Shown in pieces: positions 1 to 59,052 of a DNA stretch of 64,000 bases. Source of the stretch: Leptogranulimonas caecicola (lineage in GTDB: Bacteria > Actinomycetota > Coriobacteriia > Coriobacteriales > Atopobiaceae); the NCBI RefSeq assembly GCF_023168405.1, contig NZ_AP025285.1, positions 1,424,001 to 1,488,000 of the forward strand. Direction: 5' to 3'. The notes beneath the pieces are model-generated. The model did not search any database. It worked only from the letters and a program-made list of their open reading frames with translations, and was not told the DNA's origin. A program made the position numbers and the translations under genes. Each line of letters starts with the position of its first letter. Within the stretch, counting starts at the first letter, position 1.

Positions 1-2
1 CT

Positions 3-2563: not shown

Positions 2564-2576
2564 AAGGGGGCATGGG

Positions 2577-5621: not shown

Positions 5622-5662
5622 GATACATGCCCAAATCGCAGGAACCGAAGAAAGGAAGCAAT

Positions 5663-6238
5663 ATGCTCTCAGGACATCTTGTCGCTGGCGGCATGGTCCT
5701 TATCGATGGCACTGGGTTGCCCATCGTGGAGACCGAGCCTCCAGCGCCCATGGATGGATACACAGCACGCTATTCATGGCAAAGCGGCCCTGGCGCCATC
5801 ACTCAGATCTGGGAAATGGCGCCCGAGACAGGCACAGTGACAGAGGCCATGGAGCGCCTCGCGAAGATGAACGCCATGAGCCTGCCCGATAACGAGGCCC
5901 TTGAGGTAGTTGCACTCTTTCCCAAGTGGCACTATGACACCGTCTACTCAGCAGGTACCAAGGTGCAATACGGAGGCAAGCTCTACAAGTGCCTCCAAGA
6001 CCACACCTCCCAGAAAGATTGGACGCCAAATGCCGCCCCATCTCTTTGGGCCGAAGTGCTCCCAGGGCAGGATGGCAAAGTTGGTCAATGGCTCCAGCCT
6101 GACTCCACCAATGGTTACCGTATGGGCGACGTAGTGACTCACAACGGCAAGCGTTGGAAGTCCACCGCCGATAACAACGTATGGGAGCCGGGATCCACAG
6201 GAGCGCCCTGGCAAGAACTTGCCGCAAATACCAATTAG
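5663..6238 (+). CDS. Phage protein with two CBM5/12-type carbohydrate-binding repeats
   Basis: 191 residues if started at ATG 5663, which has a strong GAAAGGAAG site; an in-frame ATG at 5627 lacks a good site. Two aromatic-rich repeats near residues 85-130 and 145-185 carry the chitin-binding-module pattern: YSAGTKVQYGGKLYKCLQDH ... LWAEV and YRMGDVVTHNGKRWKSTADN ... WQEL. Such modules bind polysaccharide; in phage tails they are attached to fibres or accessory adhesins. The N-terminal part (GQAV-like GTGLPIVETEPPAP) looks like a connector. A hairpin terminator follows directly. Probably a tail accessory protein that helps attach to surface glycan. Confidence 0.7.
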   Translation: MLSGHLVAGGMVLIDGTGLPIVETEPPAPMDGYTARYSWQSGPGAITQIWEMAPETGTVTEAMERLAKMNAMSLPDNEALEVVALFPKWHYDTVYSAGTKVQYGGKLYKCLQDHTSQKDWTPNAAPSLWAEVLPGQDGKVGQWLQPDSTNGYRMGDVVTHNGKRWKSTADNNVWEPGSTGAPWQELAANTN

Positions 6239-6240
6239 CC

Positions 6241-6263
6241 CAAAGGCCCCAGGGGCCTTTTTC
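6241..6263 (+). terminator. Intrinsic terminator between tail module and lysis module
   Basis: Stem AAAGGCCCC/GGGGCCTTT with almost no loop, followed by a T run, placed just after the carbohydrate-binding protein stop and before the holin ribosome-binding site. It may reduce rather than stop transcription into the lysis genes. Confidence 0.65.
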
Positions 6264-6278
6264 ATTAAGGAGGCTCCC

Positions 6279-6704
6279 ATGGAGCTTACGCTTTTCATCC
6301 TAGTCTGCATCGCCATGGCCATGGACATCGCCACCGGCTATGCCCTGGCTTGCAAGGAGCACAACGTCAGCTCATCCAAGATGCGCGAAGGCCTTTGGCA
6401 CAAGCTTGCCTGGATGGGCATTATCGGGGTTGCCTGGTTCGTCCAGCTGGCAGGAGAGGTGTTAAGCCAGATCGACCCTTCCCTTATGCAGCCAGCCACA
6501 GGCTTGGAAGTAATCGCCAGCATTGGCGTCACGGGTATCTGCGCCCTTTGCCTCTGGAACGAGCTGGTAAGCGTTGTCGAGAACCTTTGCGCCATCAACC
6601 CGGATATCAACGACAAGCTGGGGCGCGCTTTCAAGAACACCGAACGAGAGCAAGAAGCCAAAACCCTCATTGATCCCAATAAGGGAGGCGAGGCCCATGC
6701 CTAA
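6279..6704 (+). CDS. Phage holin
   Basis: 141 residues from ATG 6279, which has an AAGGAGG site seven bases upstream; a longer frame from 6219 runs through the terminator and is unlikely. Hydrophobic segments at about residues 2-22, 42-62 and 78-100 give two or three membrane spans, followed by a charged, hydrophilic C-terminal tail (NDKLGRAFKNTEREQEA), the layout of the toxin-secretion/phage-lysis holin family. Holins make the membrane lesions that let endolysin reach the wall. The last eight bases overlap the endolysin start, the usual lysis cassette. Confidence 0.82.
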   Translation: MELTLFILVCIAMAMDIATGYALACKEHNVSSSKMREGLWHKLAWMGIIGVAWFVQLAGEVLSQIDPSLMQPATGLEVIASIGVTGICALCLWNELVSVVENLCAINPDINDKLGRAFKNTEREQEAKTLIDPNKGGEAHA

Positions 6705-7605
6705 GGCATCCCTCAACGGCGGCCATTCTCCCTATGCTCCTGGCGCCTCAGGCTACTTCGATGAGGTCACGGAAGATCGCAAGGTGCGCGCCGCCACAGA
6801 CAAGTATCTGCGTCAAGCCGGTTGGTCTACCCATGATTCCTCTACCACAGAAACCAGTGCTCGCGCAGACATCAACACCATCGTCTCGAAGGCCAATGGT
6901 TCTGGGGCCGATTACTTCATCAGCTTTCACTTCAACTCCGGCGGTGGTAAAGGCGGAGTAGAGGTCTTTTACGCCGCCACTACAGGACGCTCTTGGCCAA
7001 AGGAAATGGGAGCGAAGATCACAGCTTCCCTCTCTAAGCTGCTTGGCATCCCCAACCGAGGAGTGAAGCCGGACACCCAATCTGCCGCCAAATCGTTAGG
7101 CGTGCTCCGTCACACCACCATGGCAGCCATCCTCATCGAAGTATGCTTCCTGGATGTCAAAAGCGACGCTGATGCCTACTGGCGCATAGGCCCTGATGCC
7201 ATCGGTCGCTGCATCGCTGAGTGCGTCTCAGGCAAATCTCTGGGATCTGTCCAAGTCCCTACGAAGGGCTGGTACAAGGACTCCCACGGCTGGTGGTGGG
7301 AGAACGGCGACGGCAGCTACAAGAATAGCCAGTGGTTCAACCCCTCTCGGGGCGAATGGTATTGGCTGGGAGCTGACGGCTATGCCGCAACCGGATGGAC
7401 GCTTATAGATGGCACCTGGTACTACTTCGCCAAAGCAGGAGAGCCTGGCTATCGAGAGTGTCAAATGGTCTCCGAAGCTTGGCGCAAAGACTCCAAAGGC
7501 GCCGACTACTGGCTCTCTGGAGACGGTTCCATGGCCACCAGCCGATGGGTAGACAAGGCTCGCTACTACGTAGGCCCCGATGGGGCCTGGGACTCATCCC
7601 GCTGA
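6697..7605 (+). CDS. Phage endolysin: N-acetylmuramoyl-L-alanine amidase with wall-binding repeats
   Basis: 302 residues from ATG 6697 (GGGAGGCGAGG site upstream), overlapping the holin. Residues 1-180 form an Amidase_3-type catalytic domain: LNGGHSPYAPGASGYFDE at the N terminus supplies the first zinc histidine, FISFHFNS the second, and ILIEVCFLD the catalytic glutamate. The C-terminal ~110 residues contain aromatic repeats typical of choline/cell-wall-binding modules (GWYKDSHGWWWENGDGSY, GTWYYFAKAG, ARYYVGPDGAW). It cleaves the peptide-sugar bond in peptidoglycan during lysis. It is the last recognisable prophage gene in the window. Confidence 0.9.
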   Translation: MPKASLNGGHSPYAPGASGYFDEVTEDRKVRAATDKYLRQAGWSTHDSSTTETSARADINTIVSKANGSGADYFISFHFNSGGGKGGVEVFYAATTGRSWPKEMGAKITASLSKLLGIPNRGVKPDTQSAAKSLGVLRHTTMAAILIEVCFLDVKSDADAYWRIGPDAIGRCIAECVSGKSLGSVQVPTKGWYKDSHGWWWENGDGSYKNSQWFNPSRGEWYWLGADGYAATGWTLIDGTWYYFAKAGEPGYRECQMVSEAWRKDSKGADYWLSGDGSMATSRWVDKARYYVGPDGAWDSSR

Positions 7606-7635
7606 CCTGGAGGTGATCCGGTCCGATCTGCAAGG

Positions 7636-7672
7636 CCTTATTTATAAGAATCGCCGATTTATATAAATAAGG
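7636..7672. repeat. AT-rich inverted repeat after the lysis genes
   Basis: Perfect 11-bp inverted repeat CCTTATTTATA ... TATAAATAAGG with a 15-base spacer. It is strikingly AT-rich against its surroundings. It could be a protein-binding site or part of a phage end; no function is assigned. Confidence 0.5.
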
Positions 7673-7709
7673 AGCCCGCATCTCCACCCTTATTGATACT
7701 CGATAAAGC

Positions 7710-7745
7710 AAAGCCCCAGTCCTCTTCGGAGGGCTGGGGCTTTTT
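7710..7745 (+). terminator. Intrinsic terminator of the prophage late operon
   Basis: Stem AAAGCCCCAG with CTGGGGCTTT, extended by CCT/AGG around a CTTCGG-type loop, followed by TTTTT. It lies about 105 bases after the endolysin stop codon. Confidence 0.88.
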
Positions 7746-7876
7746 GCCATTATGTAGTTGTACTTTTTAGCTCATCCACAAACCTTTGTGTCCAAATGTG
7801 TACAAGAAGCCCTTTTTGCATAATCAAACAAGAAAACAGGCCACCGCCAAACCAGACGATGACCTGCATGTTTTCC

Positions 7877-7962
7877 TGGTGCCCGAGGTGAGATTCGAAC
7901 TCACATGAGCGCGAGCTCAGAGGTTTTTGAGACCTCCGTGTCTGCCATTCCACCACTCGGGC
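7877..7962 (-). tRNA. tRNA-Leu (anticodon CAA)
   Basis: Read on the minus strand it begins GCCCGAGTGG and ends CTCGGGCACCA, so CCA is encoded. The acceptor stem pairs perfectly, the anticodon stem GAGGT/ACCTC encloses loop CTCAAAA (anticodon CAA), there is a long class II variable arm (GAGCTCGCGCTC) and a T arm GTGAG/TTCGAAT/CTCAC. Its 3' end faces the prophage remnant, a common arrangement for integration into tRNA genes, but no integrase or second attachment site is in view. Confidence 0.96.
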
Positions 7963-7977
7963 GAGTCGCGAGTACTT

Positions 7978-8005
7978 ATTCTAGCAAAAGCAGGCGCCTG
8001 CGCAA
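7978..8005 (-). promoter_or_regulatory. Promoter of tRNA-Leu
   Basis: On the minus strand TTGCGC (-35) and TAGAAT (-10) are separated by 16 bases, with the -10 box ending 15 bases before the tRNA 5' end. A GC-rich palindrome GCAGGCGCCTGC followed by TTTT lies inside the spacer and could also end transcription of the upstream MBL gene. Confidence 0.6.
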
Positions 8006-8021
8006 CGCTCAGTGGGCTTCC

Positions 8022-8729
8022 CTATTGTAAGAAGGGGTTGGAGGCCAACTCCTCCTCCATAGTGGAAGCGTCGCCATGGCCGGGCAAAATGACGGTGTCG
8101 GCAGGCAGAAGGCCTTTGAGTCGCTCGAGCGTGGCAGCCAAGGTGTCGGCGTCGCCGCCGGGGAAGTCGGTGCGGCCGGCCGTGCCTTTGAAGAGCGTGT
8201 CGCCAGTGAAGGCGATACCGTCCCCCAACAGGACAATGCCGCCCTCGGTATGACCGGGAGCATCCACTACCACCAGCGTGACCTCGCCCACCGTAATGGT
8301 GTCCCCCTCATGAAGCACGCGGGAAGGCTCAGGCGCATCGTCATCGTAGGCCACGCCCAGGTTGCCCACGCCTCCGGCTTTCATGGCACGCTCGGCATCG
8401 GCAGCGCCAATGGCAAAAGGCACGTTGCCGCCCAAAGCGCCGATAAGAGCCTTCACTCCGCCCACATGGTCGCCATGGCCGTGAGTGGCGACCACCAGAT
8501 CCACCGTGACGTCACTCAAGTGCTGGGCGATGGCCGCACCGGCAGCGCCGGGATCCACCACCAGCCCGTGGCCGTCGGAAATGAGTGCGTAGCAGTTGGT
8601 CTCGATGGGTCCCACGGTAAAGGCCCGGATCTCCACATGGGTGTCGGAAGGATCGGTGATTTCTGACTCTTGAGGTTGGTTGTTCTGGGCAGGGGTGTTG
8701 GCTGCAGTGGAGGCAGCAGTGTCTTCCAT
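8022..8729 (-). CDS. MBL-fold metallo-hydrolase (glyoxalase II-like)
   Basis: 235 residues. The metallo-beta-lactamase motif THGHGDHVGG supplies the HxHxDH metal ligands; further ligands lie in VDAPGHTEGG and ITLPGHG-like ILPGHGDAST near the C terminus, and FTGDTLF carries the bridging aspartate. The N-terminal ~30 residues are Gln/Asn/Ala-rich and probably disordered. The family comprises binuclear Zn or Fe hydrolases of thioesters such as S-lactoylglutathione; the substrate here is unknown. It begins two bases after the rel stop codon, so it is co-transcribed and probably translationally coupled with rel. Confidence 0.88.
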   Translation of the reverse strand: MEDTAASTAANTPAQNNQPQESEITDPSDTHVEIRAFTVGPIETNCYALISDGHGLVVDPGAAGAAIAQHLSDVTVDLVVATHGHGDHVGGVKALIGALGGNVPFAIGAADAERAMKAGGVGNLGVAYDDDAPEPSRVLHEGDTITVGEVTLVVVDAPGHTEGGIVLLGDGIAFTGDTLFKGTAGRTDFPGGDADTLAATLERLKGLLPADTVILPGHGDASTMEEELASNPFLQ

Positions 8730-8731
8730 GG

Positions 8732-11083
8732 CTAGACTCTCCGTTTCATTTGGTTGGCGCCCTCGCCAGGCATGATGCGGCGGGCGTCATAGACGCTGGG
8801 CACGCGGCTTACTGCGGCCAGGAGAGGGTCGAGCAAGCTGGCGTCTGAGATATGTACCAAGAAACGCAGGCGGGCAAAACCGTCGGAAGAGACCTGAGTG
8901 GCAGCTGAAAGGATGTTGCCGCCCGCGTCGCCAATGGCGATGGTGACGTCTTTGAGAAGGCCAATGCGATCGGTGGCTTCTACCACGATCTCCACCTGGA
9001 ACTGGGTGGCGCCTGAAGTGTCCCAAGCCACTTCGATGAGGCGCTCAGGATGTACCATGAGGCCCTTGACGTTGGGGCAGCTGGCGCGATGCACCGATAC
9101 GCCGCGGCCGCGGGTGATGAATCCCACGATCTCGTCGCCAGCCACAGGGTTGCAGCAATGGGCCAGATGCACCAGCAGGTCCGGATCGTCTTTCACCACT
9201 ACGCCGCAGCTGTTGCGCTGGCGTTTCGAGAGGTCGCGCTGGGCGCGCTGGGCTGCGTGTGTGGGGAGCATGGGGCGGTCTTCGGTGAAGACCTTTTGGC
9301 GTTCCCGAGCCTGCTGGGTGGCCTTCTCGGCAGCGGCGATTTGGGCCGGCGAGCCCTCTTCAAGAATCTGCTCCACCTTGTTGGCCACACTCTTGGGTGA
9401 GAGCTTGTTGGAACCGATGGCGGCGAAAAGCTCGTCTTGGCCAGGGAATTTAAGCTGTTCGCACACCTTGGCAATGGCGCGCACCGAACGGCGTGTGGAG
9501 ATGCCGTATCCCTTTTTGCGCAGCTCCACAGCCAACATGGAGCGTCCCAGCTCGGCGTCGGCGCTCTTGTTGGCGCTGGAGAAGTACTTGCGGATCTTGG
9601 CGCGGGCCGAGGGGGTGCGCACGATGTTCACCCAGTCGGCGGAGGGCTTGGAGTTCTTGTTGGTGAGGATCTCCACGCGATCGCCCATCTCGAGGTGATA
9701 GGTGAGCGGGACCACCGAGCCATTGACCCTGGCGCCCACGCAGTGGTTCCCCACCTCGGTGTGGACGGCATAGGCGAAGTCCAGCGGCGTGGAATCGCGC
9801 CGCAGACTCATGACTTCGCCCTTGGGGGTGAAGATGAAGATCTCCTCGTCAAAGAGGTCCACGCGCAAATCCTGCAGGTAGCGGCTGGGATCGTCGATCT
9901 CGCCCTCCACCGCCCAGTCGAGGGAGCGGCGGATGTGGGAGATGGTGGAGTCGATGGATTGGTCGTCTTGGGCCATGACGCCGTTGGAGTTGCCGGCGCT
10001 CTTGTAGAGCCAGTGGGCGGCGATGCCGTATTCGGCCTGCTCATGCATCTCTTTGGTGCGAATTTGAATCTCAATGGGCCGGGCTTCGGGCCCCACTACC
10101 GTGGTATGCAGCGAGCGATAGAGATTGGGCTTAGGGGTGGCGATATAGTCTTTGAAACGGCCGGGCAGCGGGTGCCACAGGCTGTGAACCGCGCCCAAGA
10201 CGCTGTAACAGTCCCCCACCGTCTCTGTGATGACGCGCAGGGCAATAAGGTCGTAGATGTCGGTGAAGTCTTTGCCCTTGCGCTGCATCTTTTGGTAGAT
10301 GGACCAAAGGTGCTTGGCGCGGCCGCTGATTTGATAGCCCGAGAGACCGGCAGCTTTAAGCTCGTCATCCAGCACCTTGATGGCCTCATTGGTGGAGGCT
10401 ACGCGCTGTTCGCGAGACTCCTGCACCATGCGGGCGATGCGCTGATACTCCTCAGGCTCCAAGTAGAAGAAGGAAAGGTCTTCGAGCTCCCATTTGATAG
10501 AGCTGATGCCCAGACGGTCTGCCAAGGGCGCATAGACATCCATGGTCTCGCGGGCTTTGAACTGGCGGCGATCAGGCTTTAAGGCCGCCAGCGTACGCAT
10601 GTTGTGCAGGCGGTCTGCCAGCTTGATGATCACCACGCGGATGTCTTTGGACATGGCCAGAAACATCTTGCGCAGATTCAAAGCCTGCTTCTCGTCCATG
10701 GAGTTGACATCGATGTTGGTGAGTTTGGTCACACCGTCCACCAGATCTGCCACAGTCTCGCCAAAAAGCTCGATGAGCTGCTCCTTGGTAGCCGGAGTGT
10801 CTTCCACCGTATCGTGGAGCAGCGCGGCCGAGACCACATCCGCATCCATGCGCAGGTCGTGAGCGAGGATAAGCGCCACCTCTACCGGATGATTGATGTA
10901 GGGCTCGCCGCTGCGGCGCTTTTGCTCTGAGTGGAAGTCTGCTGCAAAGAGATAGGCCTTCTCCACCTGGTCCATGGCCTCAGGAGTCATGTAGGACTCG
11001 CAGGTGTTGCGCAGTTGCGGGTAGTTGTCAGCCCCTACCTTAGGCATGGGTCGTGCCTGCGTGGCAGCGCTTATCTCGGTCAT
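8732..11083 (-). CDS. rel: Bifunctional (p)ppGpp synthetase/hydrolase (RelA/SpoT family)
   Basis: 783 residues, full length for a long RSH protein. Domains in order: HD hydrolase (residues ~45-190, with LLHDTVEDT), synthetase (~240-370, with YDLIALRVI, YIATPKPNLYRSLHTTV and IEIQIRT), TGS (~405-465, IFIFTPKGEVMSL) and a C-terminal ACT domain (~705-775). An intact HD motif argues for both degradation and synthesis of the alarmone, as expected in bacteria with a single long RSH. Start ATG 11083 has a GGGAGGGGAG site. It lies downstream of the recJ fusion in the same direction, with a 135-base gap, and is followed by the MBL gene. Confidence 0.96.
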   Translation of the reverse strand: MTEISAATQARPMPKVGADNYPQLRNTCESYMTPEAMDQVEKAYLFAADFHSEQKRRSGEPYINHPVEVALILAHDLRMDADVVSAALLHDTVEDTPATKEQLIELFGETVADLVDGVTKLTNIDVNSMDEKQALNLRKMFLAMSKDIRVVIIKLADRLHNMRTLAALKPDRRQFKARETMDVYAPLADRLGISSIKWELEDLSFFYLEPEEYQRIARMVQESREQRVASTNEAIKVLDDELKAAGLSGYQISGRAKHLWSIYQKMQRKGKDFTDIYDLIALRVITETVGDCYSVLGAVHSLWHPLPGRFKDYIATPKPNLYRSLHTTVVGPEARPIEIQIRTKEMHEQAEYGIAAHWLYKSAGNSNGVMAQDDQSIDSTISHIRRSLDWAVEGEIDDPSRYLQDLRVDLFDEEIFIFTPKGEVMSLRRDSTPLDFAYAVHTEVGNHCVGARVNGSVVPLTYHLEMGDRVEILTNKNSKPSADWVNIVRTPSARAKIRKYFSSANKSADAELGRSMLAVELRKKGYGISTRRSVRAIAKVCEQLKFPGQDELFAAIGSNKLSPKSVANKVEQILEEGSPAQIAAAEKATQQARERQKVFTEDRPMLPTHAAQRAQRDLSKRQRNSCGVVVKDDPDLLVHLAHCCNPVAGDEIVGFITRGRGVSVHRASCPNVKGLMVHPERLIEVAWDTSGATQFQVEIVVEATDRIGLLKDVTIAIGDAGGNILSAATQVSSDGFARLRFLVHISDASLLDPLLAAVSRVPSVYDARRIMPGEGANQMKRRV

Positions 11084-48393: not shown

Positions 48394-49494
48394 ATGGCTC
48401 GCGTCTACAACTTCTCTGCCGGCCCCGCAGCAATGCCGGTCTCCGTGCTCCAGGAAGCCCAGCGGGAGTTTCTGGATTATGCGAGCTCAGGCATGTCGGT
48501 GCTGGAGATGAGCCACAGGTCGGCTGCCTACCAGGAGGTCATCGACGCTGCCGAGAATAACTTGCGCTCCCTGGTTGGCATTCCCGATTCCTACGGAGTG
48601 CTCTTCTTGCAGGGAGGCGCCACGCTCCAGTTCGCCGCCATCCCCATGAACCTCATGGCTGCAGGGCGCGCGGGCTACATTGTGTCGGGGCATTTTGCAG
48701 AGAGCGCCTGGCTTGAAGCCGAGAAGTACGGCGTCGCAGAATGCTTGGCCTCCAGCGCAGAGACCCATTTCGACCGCATTCCTGCCCTGGGCACCATCGA
48801 GGCCAAGAGCGCGGGGCTTGACTACACCTACATCTGCCAGAACAACACCATTTTTGGCACCATGTACCATGAGCTGCCTCGCACGGGCACAACGCCGCTA
48901 GTGGCCGACGTCTCCAGCTGCTTCCTCTCACTGCCGCTGAATTGCGAGCGCTACGGCCTGTTTTACGCCGGCGCCCAAAAGAATGCGGGGCCTGCCGGCG
49001 TCACCGTGATCTGTGTGCGCCGCGACTTGGTGGAGTTTGGCCCGGCAAGTCCCTACTGCCCCACCTACCTTGACTTTTCCAAGCAGCTGGCCAAAGGCTC
49101 CATGCTTAATACCCCCAACACCTTTGGCATCTACCTGTGCTCCAAGGTCTTTGAATGGGTGCAAGCCCAAGGTGGCCTTGAGGCCATGGGCCAGTACAAT
49201 CAGGCCAAGGCAGACACGTTGTATGGCGCCCTTGACGATTCTGACTTCTACCGTGGCACCGCCCAGCGCGACTCCCGCTCCATCGCCAACGTATGCTTCC
49301 GCACTCCCACGCCTGAGCTCGACGCCGCCTTCTGCCAGGAAGCGGCCGGCCAGGGCTTGATGGGGCTCAAGGGTCATCGTTTGGTGGGAGGCATCCGCGC
49401 CTCCATCTACAACGCCGTCACTCCGGAGGCGGTGGATGCCTTAGCAGGCTTCATGAAATCGTTCGAGCTGGCCCACGGCTCACGATCTTTCTAG
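48394..49494 (+). CDS. serC: Phosphoserine aminotransferase
   Basis: 366 residues from ATG 48394 (GGAAGGA site). Class V aminotransferase: RVYNFSAGPAAMPVSVLQ, FLQGGATLQF, the PLP lysine in YAGAQKNAGPAGVT, and NTPNTFGIYLCSKVF. It converts 3-phosphohydroxypyruvate to phosphoserine with glutamate. serA follows after 116 bases. Confidence 0.96.
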   Translation: MARVYNFSAGPAAMPVSVLQEAQREFLDYASSGMSVLEMSHRSAAYQEVIDAAENNLRSLVGIPDSYGVLFLQGGATLQFAAIPMNLMAAGRAGYIVSGHFAESAWLEAEKYGVAECLASSAETHFDRIPALGTIEAKSAGLDYTYICQNNTIFGTMYHELPRTGTTPLVADVSSCFLSLPLNCERYGLFYAGAQKNAGPAGVTVICVRRDLVEFGPASPYCPTYLDFSKQLAKGSMLNTPNTFGIYLCSKVFEWVQAQGGLEAMGQYNQAKADTLYGALDDSDFYRGTAQRDSRSIANVCFRTPTPELDAAFCQEAAGQGLMGLKGHRLVGGIRASIYNAVTPEAVDALAGFMKSFELAHGSRSF

Positions 49495-49610
49495 GGCCGC
49501 CTTGTTGAGAGGGCGCGTTCGTCTCGGCATCCCCAAGACGCCGCTTCCGCCACCGGGCCGCCCATCCCATCGCTTGCCCGCCTCACGCACACCCACCTCT
49601 AAGGAGTCCC

Positions 49611-50774
49611 ATGCGCACCATCAAGATCATCGATGACATTGTAAAAGACGGCCTCACCACCATTGGCGAGGGCTACGAGATCACCAGCGACGTCGAGGGG
49701 GCAGACGCCATCCTCATGCGCTCCACCGACATCCACGGCATGGAGATGCCCGCCTCCATCCGCTGCATCGCCCGCGCGGGAGCCGGCGTCAACAACATCC
49801 CTCATGCCGAGTTGGCAGAGCGGGGCATTGTGGTGTTCAACACCCCAGGAGCCAACTCCAACGCCGTGAAAGAGCTGGTTATAGGCTTGCTTATGATGGG
49901 CTCCCGCGACGTGCTGGGCGGCATGCAATGGTGCCGTGCCCACGAGGACGACCCCAACGCCTACGCCGAGGCCGAGGCCCACAAGAAAGCCTTTGTGGGG
50001 CGCGAGGTCAAAGGCAGAAAGATCGGCGTAGTGGGCCTGGGCGCCGTAGGCTCCAAGGTGGCCAACGCCTGTGTGGACTTAGGCATGAAGGTCTACGGCT
50101 ACGATCCCTACCTCTCGGTAGACCACGCCTGGCAGCTCTATCGCGACGTCACCCCCATCAACGACCTAGACGAGCTCTGCCGCGAGTGCGACTACCTCAC
50201 CGTGCACGTGCCCCGCAAAGAGGACACCGTGGGCATGATAGGCGCCGAGCAGCTGGCTCTCTTGAACCCCGGCGCGGTGGTGCTCAACTATGCCCGCGAG
50301 GACATCATCGACGAGGACGCCATGGAGGCTGCATTGGCATCCGGCCAGGTGAAGCAATTCTTCACCGACTTCGCCACCCCCAAGTCGCTCCACATGCCCC
50401 GCACGCTGGTGACCCCGCACTCCGGCGCCGGCACCGTGGAGGCCGAGGCCTCCTGCGCCCGCATGGCCGTGGACGAGATGTGCGACTATCTGGCCAACGG
50501 CAACATCACCAACTCGGTGAACTTCCCTGAGTGCCATATGGGCACCTGCCGCGGCGCCAGCCGCATCGCCTGCCTCCACGCCAACGTGCCCAACATGATT
50601 GGCCAGATCACCGCCATCCTGGCTGACGCCTCGGCCAATGTGCAGCGCATGACCAACGAGAACTCCGGCCGCGCCGCCTACACCATGTTTGACACCGACG
50701 AGCACCTGGAGCCCCAGATCATCGAGCGTCTACGCTCCATCCCCAACATGTGGCGCGTGCGCGTCATCCAGTAG
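49611..50774 (+). CDS. serA: D-3-phosphoglycerate dehydrogenase
   Basis: 387 residues with AAGGAG before the ATG. Rossmann motif KIGVVGLGAVGSKVA, substrate-site ARAGAGVNNIP and NTPGANSNAVKEL, and the catalytic region NYAREDII ... TPHSGAGT. A C-terminal ACT domain (~310-387, NMIGQITAILADASANVQRM) offers likely serine feedback. It belongs to the short clostridial-type SerA subgroup in which 'TDFATP' stands where others have 'DVFEPEP'. First step of serine synthesis. Confidence 0.95.
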   Translation: MRTIKIIDDIVKDGLTTIGEGYEITSDVEGADAILMRSTDIHGMEMPASIRCIARAGAGVNNIPHAELAERGIVVFNTPGANSNAVKELVIGLLMMGSRDVLGGMQWCRAHEDDPNAYAEAEAHKKAFVGREVKGRKIGVVGLGAVGSKVANACVDLGMKVYGYDPYLSVDHAWQLYRDVTPINDLDELCRECDYLTVHVPRKEDTVGMIGAEQLALLNPGAVVLNYAREDIIDEDAMEAALASGQVKQFFTDFATPKSLHMPRTLVTPHSGAGTVEAEASCARMAVDEMCDYLANGNITNSVNFPECHMGTCRGASRIACLHANVPNMIGQITAILADASANVQRMTNENSGRAAYTMFDTDEHLEPQIIERLRSIPNMWRVRVIQ

Positions 50775-50789
50775 CCCAAACTCGCAGGT

Positions 50790-50825
50790 AGCGGCGGCGT
50801 GTCCTTCTCGGCGCGCCGCTTTTCT
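50790..50825 (+). terminator. Hairpin between serA and the DUF1015 gene
   Basis: AGCGGCG / CGCCGCT stem followed by TTTCTT, with TTCTCGGC in the loop. It may attenuate transcription into the DUF1015 gene. Confidence 0.6.
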
Positions 50826-50857
50826 TCTCTCACGTCCCTTGCTCACCGGGAGGTCCC

Positions 50858-52102
50858 ATGGACATCCGACCCTTTGCCGCCATCCATCCCCGCCCAGACC
50901 TCATGGCCCAGGTAGCCGCCTTGCCCTACGACGTGGTGACCCCCCAGGAGGCCCGCGACGCCGTGGCCGCCCACCCCAAGAGCTTCTTGGCCATCGACCT
51001 GCCTGCAGAAACCGGGTTCCCAGCCGATAAGGACCCCTACGCACCTGAGGTCTACCAGCGGGCGCAGGAGCTTTTCTCGGCAGCCATGGAATCTGGCGAC
51101 TACGTCCAAGATGCCGAGCCCCACTACTACATCTACCAGCTGGAAGATGGCGAGCGCTCCCAGCGGGGCCTGGTGTGCGTGGTAGGTGTCGCCGACTACC
51201 TGGAAGATCGGGTGAAGCGCCACGAGAACACCCGGGTGGTCAAGGAGAACGACCGCATTGCCCACATCGAGGCCGTGGGCGCCCAAACAGGCCCGGTCTT
51301 TTTGGCCTATGACGACGAGCGCGAGGACGGCTCGCTGGAAGAGCTGTTGGATGCGGCCAGCGCAGGCGAGCCCTGGGCAGACTTCGTGGACGACGAGGGG
51401 GTGCGCAACCGCCTTTGGCGCGTGGACGATCCCTGGATGCTGGGACAGCTTTCTACGGCTGCCGGAGCGCTGGAGTGCGCCTATATCGCCGACGGGCATC
51501 ATCGCGGGGCCTCGGCAGTGAAGGTGGCCCAGCGCCACGCCGGCGACCCCGACGCCGCCGACGATGCCGATGCCTTCATAGCTGTGCTGTTCCCCGCCTC
51601 CGAGCTCTCCATCCTGGCGTACAACCGCGTGGTAGCCGACCGCGCCGGGCTCACCCCCGCCCAGCTGCTCGCTGCCGTCGAGGACGCCGGGTACACCCTA
51701 GAGCCGCGGGCTGAGGCGGCAAGTCCTTCTCGGCAGGGAAATTTCACCCTTTATACCGACGGCCACTGGTACGAGCTCTTCCCCACCCCTGAGCTTGTGG
51801 CGCGCCGCGGTGCGCTGGGGGCGGCGGATTCGTTGGATGTGGCTCGATTGCAGGCCGAGATTCTGGCGCCCATCCTGTCTATTGGCGACCCCCGAGAAGA
51901 CCCGCGCATCGAGTTTGTGGGAGGCATTCGGGGCTTGGGCGCACTGGAGGACGCCGCTGCCGAGAAGGGCGTGGCCATTGCCTGTTGGCCCACTTCAGTA
52001 GAGCAGCTCATGGCCGTCGCCGACGCCGGAGAGCTGATGCCTCCCAAGTCCACCTGGTTCGAGCCCAAGCTGCGAAGCGGACTGGTGTTCCACAAGATCT
52101 AA
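50858..52102 (+). CDS. DUF1015-family protein
   Basis: 414 residues, GGGAGG before the ATG. Family hallmarks: IRPFAAIHPRPDL, LPYDVVTPQEARD, HYYIYQLEDG, VKRHENTRVVKENDRIAH, AYIADGHHRGASAV. DUF1015 proteins frequently neighbour serA/serC in clostridia and relatives, which suggests a serine-related role, but the biochemical function is not established. Three copies of the TTCTCGGCAG word fall in this gene. Confidence 0.85.
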   Translation: MDIRPFAAIHPRPDLMAQVAALPYDVVTPQEARDAVAAHPKSFLAIDLPAETGFPADKDPYAPEVYQRAQELFSAAMESGDYVQDAEPHYYIYQLEDGERSQRGLVCVVGVADYLEDRVKRHENTRVVKENDRIAHIEAVGAQTGPVFLAYDDEREDGSLEELLDAASAGEPWADFVDDEGVRNRLWRVDDPWMLGQLSTAAGALECAYIADGHHRGASAVKVAQRHAGDPDAADDADAFIAVLFPASELSILAYNRVVADRAGLTPAQLLAAVEDAGYTLEPRAEAASPSRQGNFTLYTDGHWYELFPTPELVARRGALGAADSLDVARLQAEILAPILSIGDPREDPRIEFVGGIRGLGALEDAAAEKGVAIACWPTSVEQLMAVADAGELMPPKSTWFEPKLRSGLVFHKI

Positions 52103-52194
52103 CTCATGCGAAGGGGACCGCTGCGCCTGCGGCCCTTGCTGCTTTTGCCGCCCTTGCCTGTTCCCGGCATCAATCGTGAGACTAGGCGAAGGGA

Positions 52195-52328
52195 TTCTCG
52201 TTATTAGAGCCGTTTTTGCATGGTTTTGCCTAAGGGGCAGCAGGATATTGGCGCCTTCTCGTTATTAGTGCGTCTAGTTGCACTGGGGTTTTACAAGACC
52301 CCAGTGCAGAAATCGCGATAATAACGAG
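52195..52328 (+). repeat. Spaced-box repeat element, copy 1
   Basis: Layout: TTCTCGTTATTAGAGCC at 52195, TTGCATGGTT at 52216, second TTCTCGTTATTA at 52256, hairpin TGCACTGGGGT-n8-ACCCCAGTGCA at 52279-52308, inverted TAATAACGAG at 52319-52328. Copy 2 at 58823-58957 has the same boxes at nearly identical spacing with unrelated filler. Confidence 0.85.
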
Positions 52329-52390
52329 CCGGCTGCCAAAGCAGCATGCCGGCTGTCAAAGCGACCAGTCAATGTCACATGGCAGCCTTA

Positions 52391-52440
52391 TTTCTCAACG
52401 CCCACTACTCCCACATTTCTCAACGCCCACTACTCCCACA
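52391..52440 (+). repeat. 25-bp perfect tandem repeat
   Basis: Two identical 25-base units (starting TTTCTCAACGCCCACTACTC) with a few bases of a third. Length is suitable for strain-level variation. Confidence 0.92.
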
Positions 52441-52498
52441 TTCTCTGCGTTCTCTCAAACACTGTGGAACAAAGGAAAACCCAGCATGTGCTCTGCAT

Positions 52499-52536
52499 AA
52501 AAGCCCTCTTGGCCCGCCAGGGTCAAGAGGGCTTTT
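52499..52536. terminator. Bidirectional terminator between convergent genes
   Basis: Perfect 13-base stem AAAAGCCCTCTTG / CAAGAGGGCTTTT with 12-base loop; works in both directions, ending the surface-protein transcript on the minus strand. Confidence 0.88.
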
Positions 52537-52599
52537 AACGGTGCGAACGGTGCGAGCTTAGCGTCATTTCAAGCTCGACACCGCTCCCGTCTAGGGCAA

Positions 52600-55500
52600 C
52601 TAGGCGCGACGCCTACGCAGGTAAACCAGGGTAGTGGTGGCACCCGCAGCTAAAAGCACCAGCGCACCCCAGAAGACAGGTTCGTCGCCCATGCGGCCCA
52701 AGCGGCCGAAGCGCCCGTTCACCGGGTACACGATAGTGGCAGTGGCAGTAGCCTTGGCCTCGATCTCGGTGGCGGCAGCACCTTCACCGGGAGCAAGGGA
52801 GCCAGCTTCGCCCGAGCCCACCGCCGAGACGCTGTTGACGATCTTGCCAGGCATGGAGGGCTCGCGGATGGCAGCCTCGTAGGTCAAGGTCACCTGCTGA
52901 CCACCGGCAAGATCGCCCACCGGCACACGCAGGGTGTTGGTCGCGCGGTCAAACTCCACGTCGCTCATAGCCAGCGGCTCCGTAGTGCCGTCGGGAAGCA
53001 TGAGCTTGAGCGAAGAGGTATCCAGCTCGAGCCCATCACTCATGACGTCTACCAGTAGCGTGTCGAAGCTCATAGACATGTCCAGGGTATTTACTAGCTT
53101 GACGGTATAGCCCACCTTGTCACCCAGATACCACTCATCGGTATGAGTGAGGTTCTCGGCAGTCTTTTCGAGCGAGAGCTGAGGATCTGCCCACACCACC
53201 GGATGCGTGGAGTCCTGCTCGCCGGGGAACGCCTCTTGAGACTCAGTGCCACCGCGAGGAACAGGATCGGTCCAGGGGTCGCCGGGCTTCACCGTGTCAT
53301 TGGGTCCTACCAGCAAGTTTGTGCCCACCGCCACATTGGGGATCATGAGCCCGTGAGCTGCCTGGGTGACAGTGGCCTCAAAGGTGAGCTTTGCGACCTC
53401 GCCCTTCATGAGGGTGCCGCAGGTAACGCTCAAGGTGCGGGTCTCAGGGTCGTAGGCTTCAGGGGCTACCGAGAAGGGCTCGCCCTCCTTGATTTGGAGC
53501 TTGAGGGTGGAAAGGTCGATCTCGAGACCTTCGGGAAGGGTGTCGGTGATAAGGCCGTTCTCGATGGCGGAGTCATCCTTGGTGGTCTTGAGCTCGATGG
53601 CATAAGCCAGGCGGTCGCCCACGCGGGTAATGGGGGCACCGAGGGCCGTGAGGTTCTGTGCGTCCTTGATGATGGAGATGTCTGGCGACGCCCAGTGGAC
53701 GGCACCGTCGTCAGGCAGCACTACGTCGGTGGTGAGACCGCCGGTGGGGCCTGCAGGGACGTCAGGAAGATCGGGGTCATCGGGGTGGCTGGGATCTTCA
53801 GGCGTGCGAGTGCCGTCGGTGGTGCCCAACACGCTGGCGCTGTTTTGCACCGGGGTGCCCAAAGGCTGGTCCTGGAGAGCGTCGGTGGTAAGCGAAGCGT
53901 CGAACACCAAGGTTTTAGCGGTGCCAGGCGCCACGTCGCCCAAGCTGTAAGTCACACGACGAGTAGCAGCGTCATAGGCGCTGTCGGGTACCGCCAATGC
54001 AGTGCCGCCCTCCAAGTTGGCAAGATCGCGCACGATGAGCTTCATGGTTCCTGCCTGGGGCACCACACCCACCGGCAGAGGATCAGAAACCGTCACGTTT
54101 TGCCAGTTGGTGAGGCGGTTGTTTTGTGCGGTGATGTAGTAGCGCACCGTGTCGCCGATGCGGTTCACGCCGCGAGGATGGGTGAGGTTGCGCAGCACCT
54201 TGGTGATAAAGGTGTCACCCTCCTTGGAAGGATCGATGGTGGGGTCGTGCGTGGGGGTGACGTTGGGCGTATCCGGGTCTATCGGCTCGCTCTCAGGATC
54301 GACGGGCTTGTCGGGCGAATCTGGGTCGCTGGGGTTATCGGGATCGTCCGGGCCGCCAGGGTTGTCAGGATCGCTGGGATCGTCTGGGTTGTCAGGATTA
54401 TCCGGGTTTTCCGGGTCTGCGGGGCCGCTGGGCGTGTTGGAAGGCGCACCCTTGTGGGCAGAGGCTCCAAAGACGGGATAGACCGTGGTATAGCCCTGAG
54501 AGAGCACGTCGTTGGTGGTCAGGAGCACCGGGGCTTCCGGCGTAGTGGTCCACCCCAGGAAGGAGCGGTTGTGTTTCTCGGCAAGGGAAGTCGCCCAGGC
54601 GGCAGCCTCGTTCTCATTGAGCGATTCCAACGTGGAGAGCACCTTGGAGCCCGGCTGGGTGCCATTGTAGACAAAGGCCGCGATCCCATCGGGAAGCTCC
54701 TTGACCTTGAGGCCGGAGCCGGCGCGGGTCTTCTCGACCACTACTTTGACGGAGGCGTCGGCCTGGAGGTCGTTCAAGCTCACAGAGCCGGCGGTAAGGA
54801 GGTCGGGACGAGCCTGACCGTTCACAAAGACACCGGTGACGGTGAAGCCCTCCGGAACGTCCCAGGATACAGGGTAGTTTGAGCCCTTGGCCAGTGCGTT
54901 GGCGCTGGCGGTGATGGAGCCGGGGCCCTCGCTCACGATCTGAGTCTCAACGCGGCACGTGTCTTCTTGGTGGTCCTCGGGCTTGGTAGTGATGACATCG
55001 GCCTTCACGAATGTGGCATGGATGGTGTGATTGCGATCCACCTTATAGAAGGGATAGGAGCCCGTATCGTCGATAACCGCGTCAGGCTTGGGAGCCACAG
55101 GGTCCTCGCTGACAGCGGGATCGCCAGGGCCGTCGGCCAGAAGGGAGCTCAGGCACTCGGGCGAGGCCATCTTGAGCATGGAACGCAGCAGGTTCTGGCT
55201 CTGTGAGACGTCGGTCTCCTTGGTGGACAGGCGATCGGCCAGGGAGCGCTCGGGATAGAAGGAACGAACCGTGTCGATGGTCACGCCTTGGAGCATCCAG
55301 CCTTCGGCAGGTTCCCACTCCACGGGGTAATCGCTGCCGCGCTTGACGATGGCCGAGGGCGTGATGGTCCCCTGGCCTGTCACCCGGGTGTCGATGGAAA
55401 TCTGCTCCTCCTCGGAAAGGGTGACGTTTCCCGCTTGATCCTTGGGCGTGAGCTTGACCTCCACCGTACAGTCCTTGGAGCCGGCAGGCAGCTCGATAGC

Positions 55501-58236
55501 CACCGAACCGTCATCTTGCACCGTGATGCTTGTGGGGTTCACCTTGGCGCCGTCGGCGTCGGTGACGGTGATGTTTTCTTGTTTGATGTCATAGGATGAG
55601 GCGTACTCAGGGTCGATGGCTGCGGTGACCGTGGTGCCCTCGCCATCAGCGACGCGCACCGTGGGGCTCACCGTACCAGGACCTCCTGTGAGGCGTGTGG
55701 CCACCTGGTGATCTCCCTCCGAGCTGGAAGTGCCCGTTGGCTTGAGCTTCACCTCGACCTCGTGGTCGCGGTCCACCTGGGAGAAGGTGACCGAGGTTGC
55801 CCCTGCCGCTACCAGATCCGGGCGCTCCACGCCATCGATGTAGATCATCTCCAGCTCACGGGTGGAATCGAGCTTCCACTCCACCTTATAGTTGGATGCC
55901 CCGCTGTCGTCGGTGGCCACAATGGTGGACTTGGTGATGGTGGAGCTGCCTGCATCGCCGGTAAGCTTGGTGGCCACCTGAGCGTAGTCCACAGGATCCA
56001 CCGGTGCCGACAAGTACTCCACCACCACATGATGGCTTGCCTCCAGCGCCCCAAGGTTCAGGGTGCCTCCGGCATATCGTGCTGGGTCCAGCAGCTCGTC
56101 GTCCAGCCAGACAGCACCGATTGAGCCGCCCTCGGCTGCCTTGAGGTTCACCGAGAGCTTGGTGCCCGTGTCATAGGTATGGGCCTGGCTGTCGATAGGC
56201 GCAGGGTCTTGGCCCTCCACCTGGATGCTGGTGGTGCCGTTGCCCTTTTGGCTCACCAAGAGATCCCAAGTCTTCACCCACTTGGCGTAGACGTGGAAGG
56301 GCTCTTTGGTGTCTGCGCCAGAAGGCGGGTAGGTTCCCTCAGGCACAATCTTCTCTCCGGTACCTGCGTTGTTAAGGTACCAGCCGTCAAAGCGGTAACC
56401 CTCGCGCACGGGGTCGTCGGGGTAACTGGCAATGATGTGGTTGTTGGTAAAGAGGGACTGGGCCTCGTCATCAGCGGTCGCCGGCTCGGAGGTCCCGTCC
56501 TCGTTGCGATGGAAGTGGGCTCGACGTTCCAACACCTGGATGGGCACCACCATGTCGCCACTCACGTTACCTGCCCAATCAACGGCATAGACATGGGCGT
56601 AGTACTGAGTATCCAGATTCAGGTTCTGAGCCGAGGTATAGGTCACCGTGTCGGTGCTATTGGAAGCAGAAATGATCTGAGAGGCGTTCACCTGGGACTT
56701 GGTGATAGCCTCAGGATCCTTGTTTGTGTCCACTGCCCGCACATAGTAACCACGCAGACCAGAGAGGGCTGTCTGCACCAGGGAGGCGGTTTTATCGGCA
56801 GGGGCGTCATCGAGGGTCTCAGGATCGCTCCACACCTCCACATACTCGGGGGCGTTTTGCAAGGTTGCCTGGGGAATGCCCTGGATCTTGTAGGCAAACT
56901 GGGTGCCCGCATCCACCGAGCCGCGCAAATTGAGCGTGGCCGAGTAGTGCCACCCATCGGGAGTGAGATTCACTCGGCGCAGGGAGGCGTTGGCGGCAGA
57001 GGGAGCGTCCTCATCGGCAAAGGAGAGGTCGGAGCCAGAGGTGTAGCGCGAGCCCTGGGCGATGTAGAGCAGTGTGTTGGCGAAGACCTTGCACTCGTCT
57101 TCTGTAGCCGATCCGTTGGAATGGCCGGTTTGGATCATGGCGTTTGAGCCATTGGTGACCAGATAGTAGTTGTCGGTGCCATTGCCCTGCGTGAAACGGA
57201 TCCCCTGCACATTGCCTGCGCCATCGCTCATCTGCATCCACACGCGAGCATTGGAGCCGGCCAGCACCCTTTGCCCCAACACATGGGTGGTGGGAATGGA
57301 AAGCGTTTTGCCGTTGAGGTCCCAGGGACGCGAGGTCAAAAAGCCCGTGTCGATGACCTTGCAGTTGTTGAGCATGTAGGTGGTGCCGCCCTGCCCGGGG
57401 AAGATATCCAGGAAATCCTCGCGGGCGAAGCGGTTGAAGTAGGGGTGGTGCAGTTGCTTGGAAGCGTTGTCGGCATAGGGATCGGAGGTAGATGAGGATG
57501 AGCCGGTGATGGTGTCGTGGCCAAACATGAGGCCGCCGCCATGCTTGGCAAAAGCCACAGTGGCATCGCGGGAGGCAGCATTGAGGTCGCCGCCGGCGTT
57601 GGCATCGTAAGTGCCAAACATGATGACGTCGTACTTGTACTGCTGAATGTCGTTTCCTTGGGCATCCTTCACGGTTTCCATGAGATAGCCGTTGGGGTTG
57701 GCGTTGTAGTCGGCCAAGGTGATGGCCGTGATGTCCATAAGGTCGCGGCCCACCGTCACGCGCTGGCCAGTGGTGGGATCTGTGGTAGGAGTGTTCATCC
57801 AGTTTTTGAGATAAGCCGTAGAGGCGCCGTTGGGCGCCACATTGAGCACGCGGATCTTGTTGGAATCGCTGTAGGCGCTTCTGGATTCCCAGGCGCTCCA
57901 GGCATTGGAGCTGGTAGCCTTCTTCGACTGCCAGATGATGTATTTGTAGGGGCGGCCAGGGTCTGCGATGCCCTCGCCCGGGCGCAGCGGATTCTCAAAG
58001 GGGAAGGTCCACTTGAGGTCTTGGACCAGCTGCTTGTCCGAGGCTACGGTCACCTTGCCCGAAACCTTGATGTGGCCTTCTTTAAACTGAAGATCATCGC
58101 TGTCCGCTTGCGCAGAGACGCTTCTGGCGCCATTCTCCGCCAACGCCGGCTGCGGCGCCACAGGCACCAGAGTGAGCGCCATCACAAAGGAGAGCAGCCA
58201 GGCAAAGATCTTCGTCGCCAGTCCCTTGCGTTTCAT
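52600..58236 (-). CDS. Giant secreted surface protein, multi-domain adhesin-like
   Basis: 1878 residues, GGAGG before ATG 58236. Signal peptide ~1-33 (MKRKGLATKIFAWLLSFVMA ... ALAENG). Then a region resembling DUF5057 (~95-420), beta-rich segment, an InlB-type B repeat (~570-655, YRFDGWYLNN, VYAKWVKTW), several repeats of ~90-100 residues with 'G-x-G-T-I-x-P/S' pattern, a Pro-Asp-Asn linker (~1265-1322), three DUF11-like beta repeats (~1340, ~1517, ~1682), and a C-terminal hydrophobic anchor (~1850-1873) with RRRR tail. No LPxTG: LGRMGDEP precedes the anchor, so a variant sorting signal or simple membrane anchor. Likely a host-surface binding protein. Confidence 0.88.
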   Translation of the reverse strand: MKRKGLATKIFAWLLSFVMALTLVPVAPQPALAENGARSVSAQADSDDLQFKEGHIKVSGKVTVASDKQLVQDLKWTFPFENPLRPGEGIADPGRPYKYIIWQSKKATSSNAWSAWESRSAYSDSNKIRVLNVAPNGASTAYLKNWMNTPTTDPTTGQRVTVGRDLMDITAITLADYNANPNGYLMETVKDAQGNDIQQYKYDVIMFGTYDANAGGDLNAASRDATVAFAKHGGGLMFGHDTITGSSSSTSDPYADNASKQLHHPYFNRFAREDFLDIFPGQGGTTYMLNNCKVIDTGFLTSRPWDLNGKTLSIPTTHVLGQRVLAGSNARVWMQMSDGAGNVQGIRFTQGNGTDNYYLVTNGSNAMIQTGHSNGSATEDECKVFANTLLYIAQGSRYTSGSDLSFADEDAPSAANASLRRVNLTPDGWHYSATLNLRGSVDAGTQFAYKIQGIPQATLQNAPEYVEVWSDPETLDDAPADKTASLVQTALSGLRGYYVRAVDTNKDPEAITKSQVNASQIISASNSTDTVTYTSAQNLNLDTQYYAHVYAVDWAGNVSGDMVVPIQVLERRAHFHRNEDGTSEPATADDEAQSLFTNNHIIASYPDDPVREGYRFDGWYLNNAGTGEKIVPEGTYPPSGADTKEPFHVYAKWVKTWDLLVSQKGNGTTSIQVEGQDPAPIDSQAHTYDTGTKLSVNLKAAEGGSIGAVWLDDELLDPARYAGGTLNLGALEASHHVVVEYLSAPVDPVDYAQVATKLTGDAGSSTITKSTIVATDDSGASNYKVEWKLDSTRELEMIYIDGVERPDLVAAGATSVTFSQVDRDHEVEVKLKPTGTSSSEGDHQVATRLTGGPGTVSPTVRVADGEGTTVTAAIDPEYASSYDIKQENITVTDADGAKVNPTSITVQDDGSVAIELPAGSKDCTVEVKLTPKDQAGNVTLSEEEQISIDTRVTGQGTITPSAIVKRGSDYPVEWEPAEGWMLQGVTIDTVRSFYPERSLADRLSTKETDVSQSQNLLRSMLKMASPECLSSLLADGPGDPAVSEDPVAPKPDAVIDDTGSYPFYKVDRNHTIHATFVKADVITTKPEDHQEDTCRVETQIVSEGPGSITASANALAKGSNYPVSWDVPEGFTVTGVFVNGQARPDLLTAGSVSLNDLQADASVKVVVEKTRAGSGLKVKELPDGIAAFVYNGTQPGSKVLSTLESLNENEAAAWATSLAEKHNRSFLGWTTTPEAPVLLTTNDVLSQGYTTVYPVFGASAHKGAPSNTPSGPADPENPDNPDNPDDPSDPDNPGGPDDPDNPSDPDSPDKPVDPESEPIDPDTPNVTPTHDPTIDPSKEGDTFITKVLRNLTHPRGVNRIGDTVRYYITAQNNRLTNWQNVTVSDPLPVGVVPQAGTMKLIVRDLANLEGGTALAVPDSAYDAATRRVTYSLGDVAPGTAKTLVFDASLTTDALQDQPLGTPVQNSASVLGTTDGTRTPEDPSHPDDPDLPDVPAGPTGGLTTDVVLPDDGAVHWASPDISIIKDAQNLTALGAPITRVGDRLAYAIELKTTKDDSAIENGLITDTLPEGLEIDLSTLKLQIKEGEPFSVAPEAYDPETRTLSVTCGTLMKGEVAKLTFEATVTQAAHGLMIPNVAVGTNLLVGPNDTVKPGDPWTDPVPRGGTESQEAFPGEQDSTHPVVWADPQLSLEKTAENLTHTDEWYLGDKVGYTVKLVNTLDMSMSFDTLLVDVMSDGLELDTSSLKLMLPDGTTEPLAMSDVEFDRATNTLRVPVGDLAGGQQVTLTYEAAIREPSMPGKIVNSVSAVGSGEAGSLAPGEGAAATEIEAKATATATIVYPVNGRFGRLGRMGDEPVFWGALVLLAAGATTTLVYLRRRRA

Positions 58237-58822
58237 TTCTACCTCCGTAGATGTATATAGCCCGTTTATAGCTGCGTTTCAGCATACTTATACCTTAATA
58301 TATGGCTATCGATATCTTTGGGGCAATAATTAAACTTCGCACTATTGCGCAACATTTTCTTTTTGTGACGGTTGAGCCTAGCGGCTTTGCTGGTCTAAAG
58401 CATGATTATTCCATGTTTACCTTGTGATGCATCAAGATTTTTTGGGGACATCTTGGCTTTCGACTGGTCCTATTACACCTGCTTTTCAAGTAGCGCCCTT
58501 GGACATTAGGACACTGTTTGCCAGTCTTCATTCATAGAATTATGAAATTGTATTTCATCATATTTTGAATTTTATGACGTATTATTGTGACACCTGTTAC
58601 GTATATTTTTCCTAAATTGTACAGTTATTTAGTATATAGGGCCAATGGTGGCCTTTTTGGTACCTGCACCGCTTTTTGAAAAGCTTCCTCACGTGCTGGC
58701 CGCAGGTCTTTCTGCGGAGTCACTTGCTCACAAAGCGAGTCACTTGCTCACAGCGCTTATGAGCATGCTGGATCCTCAGCCACCACCTCACTGTGGCCGC
58801 TCGCAGCCTAGTCCGCCCATGA
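58237..58822. other. Long AT-rich upstream region of the surface-protein gene
   Basis: About 400 bases (58250-58650) are far more AT-rich than the rest of the window and contain no gene. Included are the palindrome ATGAAAT-TGT-ATTTCAT (58542-58558) and several TATA-like boxes on the minus strand. This looks like an extended promoter/regulatory region or acquired DNA. Confidence 0.6.
58717..58752 (+). repeat. 16-bp tandem repeat, 20-bp period
   Basis: GAGTCACTTGCTCACA occurs at 58717-58732 and 58737-58752. Confidence 0.9.
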
Positions 58823-58957
58823 TTCTCGTTATTAGAGCCTCTCTTGCATGGTTCTAGCCCGAAAAACAACGCGTAACATGAGTTTCTCGTTATTACCACC
58901 CTCGACTGCACTGGGGTTTTATAAAACCCCAGTGCACCTAACTCCACTAATAACGAG
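58823..58957 (+). repeat. Spaced-box repeat element, copy 2
   Basis: Same layout as copy 1: TTCTCGTTATTAGAGCC at 58823, TTGCATGGTT at 58844, TTCTCGTTATTA at 58884, hairpin TGCACTGGGGTTTT-ata-AAACCCCAGTGCA at 58907-58936, TAATAACGAG at 58948-58957. It is in the same orientation as copy 1, on the other side of the surface-protein gene. Confidence 0.85.
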
Positions 58958-59052
58958 TCCCTATGCCCTGCTCGCGCGGAAAGCGCGCGAGCAAGACGGA
59001 CGAACACACATGCACAAGCGCCTCCGCCAACCCCCATGGGAATCGCCAAGCC

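Follow-up and report, generated by a model that had tools for sequence, protein, structure and literature searches.

The 64,000-nucleotide stretch analysed here (the window) corresponds to C1:1424001-1488000 of a single-contig genome of 2,001,235 bp belonging to the family Atopobiaceae (G000). It contains a gene of a giant surface protein (adhesin), which is located between two similar 136-bp elements, E1 and E2, each composed of five boxes at fixed spacing (Table 1). The box offsets given in a first-pass annotation of this DNA (+0, +21, +61, +84 and +124/125) are correct for both elements, as revealed by direct reading of the sequence. Boxes 2 and 3 together with the hairpin constitute one quasi-palindrome of ~73 bp, and box 1, together with TGCATGG, is an extra, distal half-site 61 bp off.

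Table 1. Coordinates of E1, E2 and the gene between them in the window.
Feature	Position	Strand	Basis or remark
E1: distal box, box 2, hairpin and inverted box 3	52195..52330	+	sequence; orthologue is the doubled element in L051 (G001)
E1 distal half-site, TTCTCGTTATTAGAGCC-N4-TTGCATGGTT	52195..52225	+	sequence; common to most full elements of G000 and G001
E1 TTCTCGTTATTAGAGCC box	52195-52211		
E1 TTGCATGGTT box	52216-52225		
E1 box 2 (TTCTCGTTATTA)	52256..52267	+	
E1 hairpin palindrome TGCACTGGGGTTTTACAAGACCCCAGTGCA	52279..52308	.	covariation over 24 distinct copies
E1 box 3, inverted TAATAACGAG	52319..52328	-	
Giant surface-protein gene, 1878 aa; DUF11, Cna-B pilin and Ig-like domains	52600..58236	-	between E1 and E2
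E2, layout as E1	58823..58959	+	orthologue in L055
E2 distal half-site (58823-58839, 58844-58853)	58823..58853	+	sequence
E2 box 2	58884..58895	+	
E2 hairpin palindrome TGCACTGGGGTTTTATAAAACCCCAGTGCA, perfect	58907..58936	.	
E2 box 3, inverted	58948..58957	-	

The boxes of E1 and E2 are identical at 77 of 79 bases, while the filler (10/55) and the 200-bp flanks (42/200) show identity at the chance level, so the spaced-box similarity described in the first-pass annotation is real. The hairpin gave no matches in 100 shuffles, and single-strand DNA folding of the whole element yielded z-scores of -6.0 for E1 and -5.3 for E2.

The search for further copies, which had been suggested as a check, found them elsewhere in the genome. 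The sequence TCGTTATWAG occurs 20 times in G000 and its reversed control does not occur at all. About eight full elements are present, mostly intergenic, at ~115, 143, 326, 613, 1476 (E1), 1482 (E2), 1634 and 1760 kb. In all of them box 2 is placed at -21/-22 and box 3 at +38/+39 from the hairpin, and the distal box is found at ~83 on one side or at 99/100 on the other, being rearranged in the 613-kb copy. Eleven strict hairpins were counted in G000, and all eleven have orthologues in the sister species Olsenella sp. KGMB02461 (G001), with flanks that are ~88-96% identical. Two hairpins were at one point considered specific to G001, but G000 has them in a diverged form, and these candidates were rejected. 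The presence of about eight loci with equal offsets, all with sister-species orthologues, and of hairpin arm changes compensated in pairs supports the earlier proposal that selection acts on the boxes and their geometry and that the pair is not a recent duplication. Other hairpins lacking the E boxes (L064, L066, L052, L053) are situated in different box contexts. In the box-less variant of L064, L066, L054 and L053, the hairpin is preceded by ATGCGATGTAG. L052 carries at ~4250-4650 the hairpin core in a third context, with repeated CTGCCAA/TTGGCAG boxes, and the conservation of this context between G000 and G001 is strong.

At 326 kb, G000 has an element with one arm as in the G001 orthologue and the second as in the 143-kb copy, and the sequence common to the two G000 copies (E143k and E326k) begins exactly at the distal box. 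Such a boundary, like the inverted outer boxes, is what would be expected if CTCGTTATTAG...CTAATAACGAG were the terminal inverted repeats of a miniature transposon that depends on an ordinary transposase, and G000 does contain a true MITE family with other boxes. However, all strict hairpin loci of G000 are orthologous in G001, comparison of the two genomes found no empty site for a solo E, no target duplication was seen, and the filler is unalignable while the internal boxes and geometry are retained. The elements are therefore quite improbable as MITEs or transposon ends.

The pairing of the hairpin was analysed over 25 copies, 24 of them distinct. In the 15-bp stem, 95% of the cells are paired, and 25 cells are doubly changed, compared with 7.1 +/- 2.9 in shuffles (0/500) and with at most 14 in slid versions of the stem. 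An example of compensation is GCATTGGGG..CCCCAATGC in G001 versus GCCCTGGGG..CCCGAGGGC in G000. The hairpin arms covary, and therefore pairing is constrained, in DNA or in RNA. Covariation together with the strong predicted folding would suit a structured RNA or a bidirectional terminator, but this reading seems very improbable. The Rfam search of the window found one tRNA and no match at E1 or E2, the stem is not followed by a U-tract, box 1 takes no part in the pairing of the core, and the outer boxes vary without compensation, CTTATAA often being opposite TTATTAG.

The E box pattern is genus-restricted. Among 299 Coriobacteriales genomes, the box 2 ... box 3 pattern is repeated only in G000 and G001; two other genomes (G075 and G047) have one match each, with the hairpin missing. 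In 84,980 species genomes, the hairpin core is absent elsewhere, except for one match in a Thalassobius MAG, which is probably due to chance, and it has no match in IMG/VR. Neither the hairpin nor the nuclease described below has a match in phage or plasmid DNA or in IMG/VR. Searches with PADLOC and NCBIfam found no match, and the matches to PHROGs were weak and non-informative. As for the known repeat families raised in the first-pass annotation, the Rfam and phage/plasmid searches provide no explanation of the elements.

It is possible that the adhesin gene is a passenger of the elements. The special tie between the elements and this gene that had been proposed was not confirmed, since the other copies adjoin unrelated genes. 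The presence of the adhesin does not vary between the two species: the region between E1 and E2, aligned as two overlapping pieces, exists in both G000 and G001. Among eight random sites in 2 Mb, the probability of some pair within 6.6 kb is ~0.18, so the bracketing alone is weak evidence for passenger status and may be a matter of chance. An adhesin-specific role was rejected in view of this probability and of the different neighbours at the other copies.

The two species differ at E1 itself. Window positions 48869-52331 align with positions 1-3473 of the G001 locus L051, and window positions 52196-57352 with 4843-10001 of the same locus; therefore, the whole E1 is duplicated in G001 around 1369 bp of unique DNA. 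The two copies, in direct orientation and 1505 bp apart, have a 73-bp identical core in common; the left one retains the left flank and filler of E1, and the right one retains its right flank. The insert has a GC content of 47% versus 64% in the flanks and contains one ORF of 342 aa, which encodes a putative nuclease. This is the only E-family site where the presence of the nuclease gene differs between the genomes. G000 has no nuclease gene flanked by E boxes, and its nearest paralogues are 54-56% identical. In a side observation, the box-less hairpin of L066/L054 follows, at ~100 bp downstream, a nuclease paralogue that is 56-57% identical to the G001 cassette gene. The element had been suspected of being the end of a mobile cassette enclosing the adhesin; the doubling of E1 around a 1.37-kb nuclease unit supports the cassette in part, and the link to the adhesin was not supported. 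Homologous recombination alone could explain the difference at E1.

The arrangement in G001, with a gene and one imperfect palindromic site between direct copies, resembles integron cassettes with attC sites, and a lipoprotein gene located between boxes in L163 could be viewed in the same way. Nevertheless, an integron-like attachment site bounding the adhesin and other cassettes is highly improbable. The E boxes read GTTATWAG ... CTWATAAC, inside-out relative to the RYYYAAC ... GTTRRRY polarity of attC. No IntI-like gene is found nearby, all four tyrosine recombinases of G000 are at least ~68 kb from any E (the nearest PF00589 matches at ~68-71 kb or more), and the two species do not differ in the adhesin region.

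DUF559 is a family without an assigned function in Pfam. The 342-aa product of the G001 insert gave weak Pfam matches, and one member of its family passes the DUF559 cut-off. Of 25 Coriobacteriales genomes sampled, 19 have members of the family, with up to 14 copies in each. Among 19 members, D247, E258 and D275 are invariant and H265 is near-invariant, which is the D...EYDS...H...D motif also conserved in DUF559 (PF04480) and REase_MTES_1575 (PF18741). A marginal profile match (E = 2.5e-4), with the E and D residues aligned, was obtained to 3r3p, the catalytic domain of I-Bth0305I; a structure prediction from the single sequence had a pLDDT of 36. By these comparisons, the repeat-linked gene appears to encode a DUF559-like nuclease that is a distant relative of the homing endonuclease I-Bth0305I, an EDxHD enzyme. 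The dN/dS values of three nuclease orthologue pairs between G000 and G001 are 0.09-0.21, so these genes are maintained. According to a review, EDxHD enzymes of this kind act as dimers on target sites that are nearly 60 bp long (PMC3943268).

Nuclease genes outside this genus were compared with TetR genes as a control. A repeat of at least 13 bp common to both flanks was found at 11/25 nuclease loci and at 1/24 TetR loci (Fisher p = 0.0012); the other 14 nuclease loci have no such 13-bp repeat. The flanking arrays are gene-specific and often symmetric, and they are located both downstream and upstream of the gene. They include two forward boxes plus two in reverse (L098, L121, L127), a single inverted pair of boxes on each side with 168 or 90 bp between them (L110, L125), and tandem GACTTGTGCGGC boxes with ~31-bp spacing on both sides (L120). 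The tandem arrays of L120 resemble iterons. Long inverted repeats with identical blocks of 109, 102 and 46 bp surround the nuclease gene of L107 (697-1018 and 2391-2712), and this gene looks like a recently moved copy. An independent replicate is provided by G004, a genome of a different genus: the boxes that flank its nuclease have 13 exact occurrences (control 0), and five solo loci contain inverted box pairs 93-94 bp apart, with diverged filler and an inner pair TTCTCG...CGAGAA. Pairs of this type are absent from nine congeneric species. A central motif like CAAAACCSCAGST, similar to half of the E hairpin and noticed after the fact, is present in 6/33 nuclease flanks and in 0/30 TetR flanks, with 0.44 in shuffles.

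The same arrays might be regulatory. The boxes flanking a gene would then be autoregulatory operators of the DUF559-like protein or another regulator, and the solo elements its small regulon. A dimeric DNA-binding protein fits the fixed spacing, the intergenic placement and the inverted boxes, and the positions of the elements are kept between the two species. Still, this explanation is unlikely: arrays also occur downstream of the nuclease gene, the covariation of the hairpin arms is unexpected for plain operators, the nuclease residues are invariant, and E1 itself is doubled around the gene in G001.

Boxes of the nuclease paralogues of G000 are distributed in different ways. CCTACTAAGTAC boxes stand on either side of the paralogue at 63 kb; there are 39 such boxes in the genome (control 3), at ~12 dispersed loci. 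The vehicle of these boxes is a MITE-like element that has terminal repeats of its own; boxes can thus be dispersed by a transposase that has no relation to the nuclease. The CTTCAGTGAGC boxes of one other paralogue are nearly local. The MITE-like elements are ~680-920 bp long, occupy ~12 loci and have imperfect ~29-bp terminal repeats (GGACAAAAAGCRTGCTGTG), as in L193:17722-18403 and L195:6042-6961 (344 kb and 1530 kb of G000). Their empty sites in G001 are clean, and they carry, besides boxes of the nuclease type, a truncated reading frame for a zinc ribbon, which terminates in a box. The lipoprotein gene mentioned above is small and lies between CCTACTAAGTAC box arrays (L163:1629-3462; G000:C1 ~150.1-152.0 kb). 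G001 has at this site one array and a degraded remnant of the gene; the region was thus rejected as a presence/absence case with a clean empty site.

Taken from sequence comparison, it is likely that the E sites belong with the DUF559-like nuclease family. The fuller explanation, that E1 and E2 are dispersed sites serving as cognate targets of this EDxHD/PD-(D/E)XK-type family, is the one we favour as fairly probable. Such a nuclease-and-site system would probably be mobile and without an earlier description. Among the possible mechanisms, cleavage-driven recombination between copies of the site is the likeliest, and it is proposed tentatively. A nuclease dimer would bind the inverted boxes and cut or nick in or near the central palindrome, where the hairpin might arise by cruciform extrusion or by folding of a single strand, and repair would be templated by another copy of the site. 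This might result in a copy of the gene being placed at a solo site to give site-gene-site, in conversion of half-elements between sites, or in deletion of the gene with one solo site left. E1 of the window would then be a solo site, prior to the arrival of the gene or after its loss, and E2 another solo site. Recognition would select the boxes, spacing and pairing, and the filler would drift. Cleavage with repair from another copy would explain the direct complete copies around the gene, the solo copies, the arm exchange and the homogenised cores; homologous recombination between repeats would yield part of the same pattern.

Gene-specific repeat families associated with a nuclease are known chiefly from the REP/RAYT systems, where the enzyme is a single-strand transposase. 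REPIN-RAYT systems combine REP sequences with a REP-associated tyrosine transposase (PMC3116915, PMC2817692); only the length and hairpin capacity of the REPIN spacer are conserved, with compensatory changes (PMC3116915), the REP copy number is usually >100 (PMC2817692), and the REP palindrome has a GTAG or CGTC tag at one end (PMC3733652). The E family is like them in having dispersed extragenic sites with inverted conserved boxes at fixed spacing, a diverged, hairpin-forming spacer with compensatory changes, nuclease-type genes each flanked by their own repeat type, and nuclease genes orthologous in sister species. Yet, on this evidence, it falls outside REPIN-RAYT because the repeat-flanked gene is DUF559/EDxHD-like and not an HUH Y1 transposase, the copy number is low (~5-12; ~8 E elements and 11 strict hairpins), and the conserved GTAG/CGTC tag is absent at the foot of the hairpins. 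The E box grammar is also longer and more complex.

With I-Bth0305I (PDB 3r3p; PMC3943268), the putative system would have in common a related C-terminal nuclease domain and a large enzyme of several domains whose target is dimeric and very long. The nuclease gene here, however, is not in an intron or intein; complete copies of its putative site lie on either side of it, and solo sites persist in the chromosome. The difference from DUF559 and REase_MTES_1575 is the putative pairing of the nuclease family with cognate repeat sites. No paper linking a DUF559 protein with such sites was found in the open literature, subscription literature being outside the search. We would suggest, with due hesitation, that the Coriobacteriales may harbour an undescribed class of selfish or domesticated elements: single-gene DUF559/EDxHD nucleases, with many paralogues per genome and private multi-box hairpin sites used as flanks and as landing or target sites, where passenger genes, surface proteins included, are possible.

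If this is true, a restriction-like or homing-like nuclease system would represent an independent origin of the REP/RAYT arrangement, and a function would be offered for one group of DUF559 proteins. Numerous natural pairs of nuclease and target, whose recognition codes are visible, would also be provided, and a route for the gain and loss of surface-protein genes in gut Actinomycetota would be suggested.

The placement of the copies on the chromosome deserves mention. None of the eleven strict hairpins of G000 lies within 0.62-1.47 Mb; as dnaA is at 0.7 kb, they are away from the presumed terminus, and a diverged hairpin copy at 1.32 Mb is the exception. Seven of the eight full elements seem to be co-oriented relative to replication.
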